Assembly (NCBI GenBank): GCA_020349025.1
Contig: CP070763.1
Coordinates: 1,521,499 to 1,585,498, forward strand
Reading direction: 5' to 3'
Source of the DNA: Candidatus Latescibacterota bacterium
Lineage (GTDB): Bacteria; Krumholzibacteriota; Krumholzibacteriia; G020349025
Length of the DNA: 64,000 nucleotides
Positions within the stretch are counted from its first letter, which is position 1. The number at the start of each line of letters is the position of its first letter. A program made the translations under genes and the position numbers. This document shows positions 28,135 through 32,848 of the stretch, piece by piece. The notes beneath the pieces are model-generated. The model was not told the DNA's origin and did not search any database. It worked only from the letters and a program-made list of their open reading frames with translations.

Positions 28135-28371
28135 ACCTTGACTGGGTCAGCCGGTTCCGGGTCTTCCAGGCTTGCGTCAACGCCCCGCCGCGGGTCGGCG
28201 CACCCCAGGCGCAGGCACACTCCGCCGGCGCAATGCCGTCTGGAATGCTGTCCGATTCTCGCCCCAGCGGCGCCGCGGCGCAAGCCCCACCCCCCGTGCC
28301 GCCAGGCCTTTCGAGGCCGCGAGGGCGATGCTATCGTGGGCCGCGCCGGCTCAGGCGCTCGAGGAGGCGAC

Positions 28372-29646
28372 ATGCTCGACATCCGCTTCATCCGCAACAA
28401 CCCGGAAGCCGTGCGGCGCGCCGCGGCGCTCAAGCACATCGATTTCGACATCGATCGGCTCCTGGAGGTGGACGTCGAACGTCGCCGGCTCATCCAGGCC
28501 AGCGAGGAGATGAAGGCGCATCAGAACCGCACCTCCAAGCAGATCTCAGGCCTCCAGGGAGAGGAGCGCCAGGTGCGGATCCGCGAGATGCAGGAGCTGG
28601 TCGCGAACATCAAGCGCATGACCGAAGAGCTGAAGGAGCGCGAGGCGGAGTTCGACGACCTGATGCTCCAGGTGCCCAACATCGCGGCCGACGAGGTTCC
28701 GGAAGGGGAGACGGATGCGGACAACGTCGAGCTGCGCCGCTGGGGTGCACCCCGAACCTTCGACTTCGAGTTCAAAGACCATGTGACGCTCGGGCTCGAG
28801 CTTGGGCTGATGGATTTCGAGCGCGCCGCAAAGCTGGCTGGCTCGCGTACCTATTTCCTGCGCGGCGCCGGCGCCCTGCTCGAGATGGCGGTGCTTCGAC
28901 TCGCTTTCGACCACATCCAGTCGAAGGGTTTCGAACCGATGCTGGTGCCGCATCTCGTGCGGCCCCTGGCGATGACGGGCACCGCGTACTACCCCGGCGG
29001 AGAAGAGCAGGCGTATCAGATCGAACGCGACGGGCTGTCGCTCATCGGCACGTCGGAAGTGCCGCTCACCTCCTTTCACGCCTCCGAGGTGCTCGCGGAA
29101 GCGGAGCTTCCCAAACGCTACGCCGGCTGGTCGGTCTGCTTCCGGCGTGAGGCGGGCACATACGGCCGCGACACGCGCGGGCTCTACCGCATCCACCAGT
29201 TCCAGAAGATCGAGCAAGTGGTCGTGTGTCGTGCGGACGCCGAGGAGTCGCTGCGTTGGCACCACGACATCCTGAAGAACTCCGAAGAGGTTTTGCAGAT
29301 GCTCGAACTCCCCTACCGCGTCGTCAACGTCTGCGGCGGCGACCTGGGACGTCCGCAGATTCAGAAGTTCGACCTCGAGACCTGGATGCCATCGCGCGAT
29401 TCCTACTCGGAAACGCACAGCGCCTCGCGCTTCCACGACTTCCAATCGCGCCGGCTGGACATGCGCTACCGTGGCGCCGATGGCAACGTGCACTTCTGCC
29501 ACACGCTGAACAACACCGTCATTGCCTCGCCACGCATCCTGATTGCTATCCTGGAGACCCATCAGCAGCCGGACGGCAGCATCGTGCTGCCGCCGGCGCT
29601 CAGACCCTATTTGAACGGGATGGAGAGGATCGGACCGAAGGCGTAA
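28372..29646 (+). CDS. serS: Seryl-tRNA synthetase
   Basis: 424 residues from ATG 28372, preceded by GAGGAGG; upstream in-frame codons look non-coding. The N-terminal coiled-coil arm that holds tRNA-Ser is clear (residues about 30-100). The class II catalytic core has motif 2 (SVCFRREAGTYGRDTRGLYRIHQFQKIEQ) and motif 3 (NNTVIASPRILIAILETHQ). TSEVPLTSFH binds the serine. It attaches Ser to tRNA-Ser, and also to the selenocysteine tRNA where one exists, relevant given the nearby selD. Confidence 0.97.
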   Translation: MLDIRFIRNNPEAVRRAAALKHIDFDIDRLLEVDVERRRLIQASEEMKAHQNRTSKQISGLQGEERQVRIREMQELVANIKRMTEELKEREAEFDDLMLQVPNIAADEVPEGETDADNVELRRWGAPRTFDFEFKDHVTLGLELGLMDFERAAKLAGSRTYFLRGAGALLEMAVLRLAFDHIQSKGFEPMLVPHLVRPLAMTGTAYYPGGEEQAYQIERDGLSLIGTSEVPLTSFHASEVLAEAELPKRYAGWSVCFRREAGTYGRDTRGLYRIHQFQKIEQVVVCRADAEESLRWHHDILKNSEEVLQMLELPYRVVNVCGGDLGRPQIQKFDLETWMPSRDSYSETHSASRFHDFQSRRLDMRYRGADGNVHFCHTLNNTVIASPRILIAILETHQQPDGSIVLPPALRPYLNGMERIGPKA

Positions 29647-29656
29647 CGGCAGCGCC

Positions 29657-30184
29657 TTACTGCCCCTCTTGGGCTCGTCGCTGCTCCGCTTTCACGTACT
29701 CGCGATCGTGCACGTATTCGAGCGCCTTGATGAAGCGCTCGGCCGGGATGTAGCCGGGAATGTTGGCGAGCCGCGTGCCGTCGGGTCTCAGGAACCAGGT
29801 CATCGGAAAGGAGCGCACGCCATACTGCTGCGCCAGCTGCTGCCCGGACATCTCGGTGTCGCCGACGGCGAATTTGCGTTTCGACTCGGCGTTGATCTTG
29901 GCGATCAAGAAGTTCTCGTTCAGCATCTCGACCACGGCCGGGTCGGTGTAGGTCTTCTTGTCCATCACTTTGCACCAGCCGCACCAGCTGGTGTAGAAGT
30001 CGATCAGGATGTGCTTGTCTTCCGCTTCGGCGCGCTCCAGAGCCTCACCGTACGGGACCCAGGCGAGCTGTGGTTTGGCGCCGTTGTTCTTCTTCTCCTC
30101 CTTGCCGTCGCCGGCCCACGCCAGAGTGTAAACGCCGCACGCCGCCATCAGCGTTGCGAGACGAATCCCGCGTGAAAGTCGCAT
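29657..30184 (-). CDS. Exported thioredoxin-fold protein
   Basis: 175 residues from ATG 30184, five bases after AAGGAGGA. A signal peptide (about 1-24, ending AWAG) directs it to the periplasm. The thioredoxin fold follows, with the redox motif SWCGWCKVMDKKTY (Cys-Gly-Trp-Cys) near residue 67 and a cis-Pro in YGVRSFPMTWFL. This looks like a DUF255/thioredoxin_7 or SoxW-type periplasmic thiol oxidoreductase. It converges with serS at a ten-base distance. The partner protein is unknown. Confidence 0.85.
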   Translation of the reverse strand: MRLSRGIRLATLMAACGVYTLAWAGDGKEEKKNNGAKPQLAWVPYGEALERAEAEDKHILIDFYTSWCGWCKVMDKKTYTDPAVVEMLNENFLIAKINAESKRKFAVGDTEMSGQQLAQQYGVRSFPMTWFLRPDGTRLANIPGYIPAERFIKALEYVHDREYVKAEQRRAQEGQ

Positions 30185-30230
30185 CCAGGTCCTCCTTGCC
30201 AGGCGTCTGGCAGTGTGCAAACGAGGCGCC

Positions 30231-30239
30231 ATTATATCA
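30231..30239 (-). promoter_or_regulatory. Extended -10 promoter of the thioredoxin-fold gene
   Basis: TGATATAAT on the minus strand is a perfect extended -10 element; no good -35 accompanies it, as is usual for such promoters. The predicted start is about 40 bases before the ATG. Confidence 0.5.
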
Positions 30240-30306
30240 CACACGCTTCGGCGGCTCTGAGTTCCCACAACCAGCGCTCATGATGCGATATTCCAGCCGC
30301 CTCTCG

Positions 30307-31110
30307 TCAGCTCGAGCCGGCGTGATGCAATTCCCGCAGCAGGTTATCGTGCAGGAGCGCATTGCTGGCCACCAGGTCGCCGCTCCAGAGGAACTCGGAG
30401 CCACCGCGCGGATCGCTGAGACGCCCTCCGGCTTCCCGCACCAGAAGCGCGCCAGCCGCGAGATCCCACGGCCCGAGCCGGAACTCCCAGAAGGCGTCGA
30501 AGCGCCCGGCGGCGACCCATGCCAGATCGAGTGCGGCGGCCCCGCAGCGCCGCAGGCCGCGACAGCGCACGGCCAGATGCGACCACTCGCGCAGGTTCGT
30601 GTGCGTATGCGTGCGGATGTCGTACGGGAAACCGGTCGCGAGCAGGGCGCTGTCCAGATCGGCGCGCGTCGAGACATTTAGCCGCTCCGAGCCGAGCCAA
30701 GCGCCGCCGCCGCGCGCGCCCCAGTACAGCTCCCCGAGAAGCGGCGCGTAGACCATGCCGCAATCGAGAGCACCGTCATGCAAGCGTGCGACCGAGATGG
30801 CAAAGAGCGGCAGCCCGTGAACGAAGTTGGTCGTGCCGTCGAGCGGGTCGACGAGCCACTGGAAGCCGGCGCGAGCCCGACGCTCCTCGCTCCCCTCCTC
30901 GGCCAGGATCGGCTGCCCCGGGAAGGCGCGCTGCAACCCCTGGTGCAGAATCGCCTGCGACTCGAGGTCGACGTGTGTCACCAGGTCGATGATCCCTTTG
31001 CGATCGACGTGCTGCGCCTCGAGCGTTCCCCACGAAGCCACGAGATGTTCGCCGGCACGACGAACGATCGGCTCCAGGAGGTTGCGTACATGCGCGCCCT
31101 CGGCGCTCAA
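30307..31110 (-). CDS. suhB: Inositol monophosphatase family protein
   Basis: 267 residues from TTG 31110, which overlaps the selD stop in a TTGA arrangement; there is no suitable ATG. Metal-binding motifs are in order: LAEEGSEE (about 71), WLVDPLDGTTNFVHGLP (about 92-108) and the late FWEFRLGPWDLAAGALLVREAGG (about 215-237). It dephosphorylates inositol or similar sugar phosphates; SuhB homologues also act in rRNA antitermination. Coupling to selD is unusual and may be only operon convenience. Confidence 0.88.
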   Translation of the reverse strand: MSAEGAHVRNLLEPIVRRAGEHLVASWGTLEAQHVDRKGIIDLVTHVDLESQAILHQGLQRAFPGQPILAEEGSEERRARAGFQWLVDPLDGTTNFVHGLPLFAISVARLHDGALDCGMVYAPLLGELYWGARGGGAWLGSERLNVSTRADLDSALLATGFPYDIRTHTHTNLREWSHLAVRCRGLRRCGAAALDLAWVAAGRFDAFWEFRLGPWDLAAGALLVREAGGRLSDPRGGSEFLWSGDLVASNALLHDNLLRELHHAGSS

Positions 31111-32180
31111 AGGGAGACCGCCTGCCGCAGTCGACCGCGGATCCGGATGCGCCCCTCGGCGCCCGCCGCAGCGTCGACGATCTGCCCGATGACGGCATGA
31201 GCAGGCACCCGGCGTGCGGCAAGATCCTCCACGAGTTGCGTTTCGTCCTCTTGTGCCACCGCGATCAGGAGTCCGCCCGAAGTCTGGGCGTCGGCCAGGA
31301 CCAGACGCTCCGCTGGCGCAAGCTCCCCCCAGTCGACGTGCGGCTCCACGGCGCGCAGATTGGCGTGCGTGCCCCCGGGAACGCATCCCTGCTCCGCCAG
31401 CGCGAGGACGTCGGAGACGAAGGGGATCTGGGTCGCATCGATCTGCGCCCCCACGCCGCTGCCGCGCAGCATGTGACCCAGATGTCCGAGCAGACCGTAG
31501 CCCGTGACGTCGGTGCAAGCGTGCACGCGCTGCGCGAGCATCGCTGCGGCTGCGTCGCGGTTCAGGGTCGCCATCAGCTCGACGATCGCGGGCTCGCGCG
31601 CCGGCGACAGCAGATCTCGCTTCAGCGCGGTGGTGAAGATGCCGGTGCCGAGCGCTTTCGTCAAAACGAGCCGATCACCCGGCAGTGCGCCGACGTTGCG
31701 CACGATGCGCTGTGGATGCACGCGACCGGTCGCTACCAGACCGTACTTCGGTTCCGGGTCGTCGATGGAGTGCCCACCCAGGATCTGGATTCCCGCCTCG
31801 CGCACCTTGTCCGAACCGCCGCGCAGGATCTCTCCCAGGATCTCGAACGGTAGTTTCTTGGCCGGGAAGGCGACGATGTTGAGCGCCAGAAGTGGCTCCG
31901 CTCCCATGGCATAGAGATCGGACAGCGCGTTCGCAGCCGCGACGGATCCAAAGCTGTAGGCGTCATCCACGAGGGGCGTGAAGAAGTCGAGCGTTTGCAC
32001 GATTGCGGTGTCGTCGCCGAGCGCGTACGCGGCCGCATCGTCGAGCGTCGCGGTCCCGACGAGAACACGTGGATCGTCAACCTCCGGAAGCGCGCGCAGC
32101 ACCTGCGCGAGGTCTTCCGGGTGCAGCTTGCACGCTCAACCGGCACCGTGGCTGAGCGCCGTCAGTCGCACACGTTCCAT
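31107..32180 (-). CDS. selD: Selenophosphate synthetase, itself a selenoprotein (in-frame TGA = Sec)
   Basis: Makes selenophosphate, the selenium donor for Sec-tRNA, from selenide and ATP. Translation should begin at ATG 32180 (AAGGAG five bases upstream) and read MERVRLTALSHGAG, then TGA (32138-32136), then ACKLHPEDLAQVL. This aligns with the SelD active-site loop (HGAGCGCK in E. coli), so TGA falls on the catalytic Cys/Sec position, residue 15, with the catalytic Lys at 18. The rest is a normal AIRS/PurM fold: LDDAAAYALGDDTAIVQTLDFFTPLVDD, GGHSIDDPEPKYG, TDVTGYGLLGHLGHM, DAQTSGGLL. Total 357 residues. Reading the TGA as a stop would give a broken gene lacking its catalytic loop. Confidence 0.92.
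32099..32138 (-). promoter_or_regulatory. Sec codon and candidate bacterial SECIS stem in selD
   Basis: The TGA at 32138-32136 is followed after 11 bases by GCACC (32124-32120), which can pair with GGTGC (32103-32099) around a 16-base loop. The apical part begins about 16 bases after the UGA, within the range for bacterial SECIS elements. Alternative pairings exist, so the exact fold is inferred. Confidence 0.4.
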
Positions 32181-32202
32181 GCACGCTCCTTGGCCAGCCC
32201 GG

Positions 32203-32231
32203 AAGGTAGCTGAGTCCTCCGAACCTCGCAA
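32203..32231 (-). promoter_or_regulatory. Candidate promoter of selD-suhB
   Basis: TTGCGA (32231-32226), 17 bases, TACCTT (32208-32203), ending about 23 bases before the selD ATG. It is divergent from the DUF507 promoter. Confidence 0.35.
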
Positions 32232-32241
32232 TGGCCACGCA

Positions 32242-32270
32242 TTGACGCTCTCGCGTCGCCCGACTATCCT
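32242..32270 (+). promoter_or_regulatory. Promoter of the DUF507 gene pair
   Basis: TTGACG (32242-32247), 17 bases, TATCCT (32265-32270). Only six bases separate the -10 from the ATG at 32277, so the transcript is probably leaderless. Confidence 0.6.
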
Positions 32271-32276
32271 GGCCCC

Positions 32277-32558
32277 ATGCGAGTCTCCGACCGCAAGATC
32301 GAATCCCTCGCCGGCAAGATCGTGCAGTGGATGGAGAAGAATCCCGACATCGAGCTCCTCGCTGACGTCGGTGCGATCGGCGCCGCAATCGTCGACGAGT
32401 TCATGCAGGAGAAGGAGATCGAGCGCCAGCTCGACGACGACGTCGACCGGATCCTGCAACAGAACGAGGCGCGCATGCGCATCGAGGGCGTCGACACGTG
32501 GGTCATGCGCAAGAAGATCCGCCAACAGCTGGCGCGTGAGCGCGGGATCATCCTGTGA
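32277..32558 (+). CDS. DUF507 family protein (first of two)
   Basis: 93 residues, mostly helical and strongly charged, starting MRVSDRKIESLAGKIVQWM and ending in a basic helix (MRKKIRQQLARERGIIL). It matches DUF507, a small family found in Acidobacteria, Deltaproteobacteria, Nitrospirae and similar lineages, often as adjacent gene pairs. No signal peptide, membrane segment or catalytic motif is evident. The function is unknown. The ATG has no ribosome-binding site and lies six bases after a -10 box, suggesting leaderless translation. Confidence 0.8.
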   Translation: MRVSDRKIESLAGKIVQWMEKNPDIELLADVGAIGAAIVDEFMQEKEIERQLDDDVDRILQQNEARMRIEGVDTWVMRKKIRQQLARERGIIL

Positions 32559-32566
32559 GGTAGAGC

Positions 32567-32848
32567 ATGCGCATGTCGCAGGAGAAGATGGCCCACGTCG
32601 CCAGCCGCATCGTCGGACGCCTCTGGGATGACGACCTGATCGACTTCAAGATGACGGAGCGGGACTTGCAGCACAAGATCAGTCAAGTTCTCGAGGAAGA
32701 TCTGCGGATCGAGGACGAAATCTCCGCGGAAGCGATTGAACGCATCGAGAGCTACAAGCGCGACATCCCCTACGGCTCCGACGAGTGGCGCATCCTCTAC
32801 GATCGTTTCTTCGGCGAGATTGCGCAGCGGCGCGGCTATACCGTGTGA
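32567..32848 (+). CDS. DUF507 family protein (second of two)
   Basis: 93 residues, the same length as its upstream neighbour and clearly a diverged paralogue: both open with M-R-(V/M)-S, a Lys-rich helix and an 'I-V-x-x-(L/M)' core, and carry an acidic middle (LEEDLRIEDEISAEAIERIE). The C-terminus differs (YGSDEWRILYDRFFGEIAQRRGYTV). It begins eight bases after the first gene's stop, with a GAGG upstream (GTGAGGTAGAGC), so unlike the first gene it has a leader. The pair may form a heterodimer (inference). Function unknown. Confidence 0.8.
   Translation: MRMSQEKMAHVASRIVGRLWDDDLIDFKMTERDLQHKISQVLEEDLRIEDEISAEAIERIESYKRDIPYGSDEWRILYDRFFGEIAQRRGYTV

Follow-up and report, generated by a model that had tools for sequence, protein, structure and literature searches.

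The selD gene of the window (the whole stretch of 64,000 nucleotides analysed here) almost certainly encodes the selenoprotein form of selenophosphate synthetase (SelD), with selenocysteine (Sec) predicted at the catalytic position from an in-frame UGA. Judged by its sequence, the product is a complete, normal bacterial SelD family protein read through a single TGA. The gene adds a new example to a well-known arrangement, one that genome comparison shows to hold across most of the source phylum.

The selD reading frame and its TGA

The selD frame starts at ATG 32180, downstream of a good ribosome-binding site (Table 1), and stays open past the TGA at 32138-32136 to a stop TGA at 31109-31107. 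The former, the single in-frame TGA of the gene, sits within SHGAG-TGA-ACK. When read through, the gene scored 398 bits against the SelD equivalog model TIGR00476 (cut-off 125) and 381.6 bits against PRK00943, with AIR synthase-like domains spanning the full length of the product (AIRS 93 bits, AIRS_C 77.5 bits). The product also aligned with the solved SelD structure PDB 3u0o (283 bits over residues 3-343), SHGAG-U-ACK facing SHGAGCGCK, such that residue 15, encoded by the TGA, matched the catalytic Cys and the following Lys was aligned as well. The preliminary description had placed the start, its ribosome-binding site, a TGA at the catalytic Cys/Sec and the continuation as a normal SelD in the same way, and each of these points was confirmed.

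Codons at the catalytic column were compared in 168 homologous selD stretches from the source phylum and other phyla. TGA was present in 133, TGC in 18 and TGT in 16, the latter two in Cys homologues, and one stretch was without a resolved codon. The in-frame UGA thus aligns with Cys of homologues and is flanked on both sides by coding sequence, as in selenoprotein genes. TGA at this column was also seen in many other phyla, and Sec-SelD was found in 66 of the 80 searched genomes of the phylum (counted from search tables). In the nearest relative (G001, same family; SelD 75% identical) the TGA is unchanged; of the differences in the 14 codons upstream of it, seven are synonymous and one is non-synonymous.

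Mechanical ORF calling, as had been anticipated, cuts the gene, yielding a 331-aa ORF from GTG 32102, which is precisely what a true stop at the TGA would give, whether the gene were a pseudogene or encoded a SelD starting at that GTG without the catalytic loop. This reading is nevertheless very improbable: the 14 codons leading up to the TGA show protein-level constraint, the TGA is held at one column across phyla, the gene is the sole SelD found in a genome that has SelA, SelB and tRNA-Sec, and GTG 32102 is itself the loop of the hairpin described below. Gene callers that miss the catalytic residue of SelD would cause annotation of the phylum systematically to lose or truncate SelD and other selenoproteins.

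Reassignment of TGA throughout the genome, to Trp or Gly, rather than recoding at selD, has nothing in its favour beyond the in-frame TGA itself and is barely credible, given that TGA is the commonest stop in the window (31/45 predicted genes, selD included), that the UCA anticodon is that of tRNA-Sec, and that the in-frame UGA sites found occupy Cys positions. An error for TGC or TGT, conceivable in a single read set, is ruled out because the same TGA recurs in the independent genome of the nearest relative (SelD 75% identical) and, within the phylum, in 64 more; the covariation of the hairpin also speaks against it.

Table 1. Positions of selD, its signals, the downstream gene, the Sec-decoding genes and two further genes with in-frame TGA. 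Positions prefixed C1 are those in the source genome; all others are window positions.
Feature	Position	Strand	Details
selD, selenophosphate synthetase	31107..32180	(-)	357 residues, predicted Sec at position 15; TIGR00476, PRK00943, AIRS/AIRS_C, PDB 3u0o
In-frame TGA (Sec15), catalytic Sec/Cys codon	32136..32138	(-)	homologue column alignment
Shine-Dalgarno AAGGAG	32186..32191	(-)	5-nt spacer to ATG 32180; sequence
Bacterial SECIS apical hairpin, CGCGCAG[GUG]CUGCGCG	32093..32109	(-)	bSECIS model fit and covariation
Inositol-monophosphatase-family gene	30307..31110	(-)	Inositol_P 212 bits; downstream of selD
tRNA-Sec (selC), anticodon TCA	C1:851755-851847		76 bits
SelB	C1:200511-202394		375 bits, cut-off 242; GTPase, beta-barrel and wing (winged-helix) domains
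SelA	C1:1031675-1032754		418 bits; N-terminal domain present
Peroxiredoxin-like (AhpC/TSA) gene	C1:2385824-2386384, locus L213:1471-2034	(+)	in-frame TGA, RHLR-U-LPC, first position of UxxC
Secreted thioredoxin-like protein	around C1:2008312-2008596, locus L226	(-)	403 residues; in-frame TGA, EW-U-SSC (UxxC)

The hairpin downstream of the TGA

The folded RNA downstream of the UGA contains a hairpin with a 7-bp stem and a GUG loop that begins 33 nt past the UGA (-10.4 kcal/mol). These values fall within the bSECIS model, which specifies a 3-9-nt loop that has a G at one of its first two positions, an upper stem of 4-16 bp, a UGA-to-loop distance of 16-37 nt and an energy of at most -7.5 kcal/mol (PMC13188914). 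An Rfam scan of window 32000-32250 gave no SECIS match. By itself the hairpin is unexceptional for a gene so rich in GC, its energy being matched by 26 of 100 synonymous recodings, and the case for a SECIS element therefore rests on the comparative signal. Across 68 aligned Sec-SelD genes the helix was paired in 90.1% of cells, compared with 27-50% for slid controls; compensatory changes, with both sides altered, were present at 6/8 pairs, and the covariation score was reached by none of 500 shuffles. Moreover, hairpins at or below -7.5 kcal/mol followed the codon in 69% of 132 UGA-SelDs versus 10% of 31 Cys-SelDs. On this comparison, which is decisive, the window hairpin is a bacterial SECIS element, and the expectation in the preliminary description of such a fold after the TGA held, with strong covariation. 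In other Sec-SelDs of the phylum the hairpin lies at different sites, chiefly 17 or 20 nt past the UGA. The covariation-backed SelD SECIS may be usable for finding more selenoproteins.

Sec decoding, self-dependence and gene neighbourhood

The source genome, a single contig of 3.84 Mb with an estimated completeness of 87%, encodes tRNA-Sec, SelB and SelA (Table 1), as is characteristic of genomes with selenoprotein genes and as the preliminary description had implied; the three genes are distant from selD and from one another. SelB exceeded its cut-off in 73/80 genomes of the phylum, and tRNA-Sec was detected in 72/80. Judged by sequence, the combination of Sec-encoding SelD, SelB and tRNA-Sec is near-universal among the 80 phylum genomes examined.

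The protein families and the parts present suggest how these components would act together. SelB, with GTP and Sec-tRNA-Sec, would bind the SECIS hairpin and insert Sec at the selD UGA; Sec15, in a flexible N-terminal loop, would capture selenide together with Lys18, ATP being used to form selenophosphate. SelA would then consume selenophosphate to make Sec-tRNA, so that SelD would support its own synthesis and that of at least two redox selenoproteins. Because the selenium donor for this Sec would come from SelD itself, the enzyme would be self-dependent, and, as it is the sole SelD found in the genome, its synthesis would need its own product. A Cys-SelD backup was looked for in the source genome and none was found, the only other match (33% identity) reading as a ThiL-like kinase rather than a second SelD. 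SelD here, with no detectable Cys backup, may be a natural case of an enzyme requiring its own product for its making.

SelD as the only selenoprotein of the genome is ruled out by two further genes with in-frame UGA, one peroxiredoxin-like and the other thioredoxin-like (Table 1), recovered by a search of the selenoproteome that was done family by family and is not exhaustive. SECIS-like hairpins follow the UGA in both genes and in relatives of the former. In the thioredoxin-like gene a bSECIS-like hairpin, GUUCACC[CGUGA]GGUGGAC, lies 21 nt downstream of the UGA. The peroxiredoxin-like gene is the weakest hairpin case, just at -7.5 kcal/mol; its relatives in G001 and G006, two other genomes of the phylum, share the UGA site (RHFG-U-IFC and RHFG-U-MFC), with hairpins 25 nt past it. 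Formate dehydrogenase was rejected as a partner, since none of the six Molybdop_Fe4S4 proteins had UGA in the domain; by reading, none of the six molybdopterin oxidoreductases of the genome resembles a UGA-containing FdhA. Searches of the source genome for YbbB, which would indicate selenouridine use, and for a SelW-like protein found neither. Within the window, five other candidates for TGA readthrough, picked by codon bias, all resemble ordinary stops beside another gene.

The stop of selD overlaps the TTG start of the inositol-monophosphatase-family gene by 4 bases (TTGA, window 31110-31107), and in G001 the same overlap reads GTGA. The two genes are probably co-transcribed. The overlap of the downstream start codon with the selD stop in both genomes makes it conceivable, though speculative and unlikely, that translation of the downstream gene is coupled to Sec decoding in selD. 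Were that so, output of the downstream gene would track selenium supply, and the pair would form a simple selenium-dependent switch atop the self-dependence loop of SelD.

Other genes lie near selD. One reads as a seryl-tRNA synthetase (window 28138-29646, (+)), the enzyme that charges tRNA-Sec, and another is thioredoxin-like (29657-30268, (-)); the order of these two and selD is kept in G001, possibly by chance. Two adjacent DUF507 genes (32277-32558 and 32567-32848, (+)), each matching half of the Pfam model, are also conserved beside selD in G001.

Comparison with known selenophosphate synthetases

A quick LG+G4 tree grouped the window SelD family with SelDs of other phyla. A horizontal origin of the gene was not upheld under a mixture model, in which an AU test did not reject a single clade uniting it with the other Sec-SelDs of the phylum (p 0.567), and no transfer is therefore claimed.

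Several other genomes of the phylum carry a second, Cys-type SelD with about 400 additional N-terminal residues (loci L018-L032), and most of these also carry Sec-SelD or SelB. The C-terminal SelD module of this extended form is about 50% identical to the window SelD; the extended form differs in its N-terminal addition and in having Cys in every case seen, and it was not found in the source genome. SelD fusions with NADH-dehydrogenase-like domains are known to carry Cys (PMC4561486). In two genomes, G016 and G018, whose other SelD is the extended Cys form, a divergent SelD (loci L135 and L136) carries its Cys within an unusual sequence context, TVEYGGCSAKLPA.

Cys-type SelD of the E. coli type (PDB 3u0o) shares its fold and active-site layout with the window SelD, to which it aligns over the full length, but has Cys in place of Sec, and the Cys-SelD genes examined mostly have no hairpin. 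Among the papers searched, none links selenocysteine with Krumholzibacteriota or Eisenbacteria. The finding is genuine yet ordinary, because Sec-SelD is already, with FdhA, one of the two most abundant and widespread bacterial selenoproteins (PMC1794560), and the surprise expressed in the preliminary description was overrated, Sec-containing SelD being classic. The window gene resembles known Sec-SelDs in its predicted N-terminal catalytic Sec, in the SECIS shortly downstream and in the presence of SelA, SelB and tRNA-Sec in the genome; it differs from them in nothing of kind, and within its phylum the trait is near-universal.
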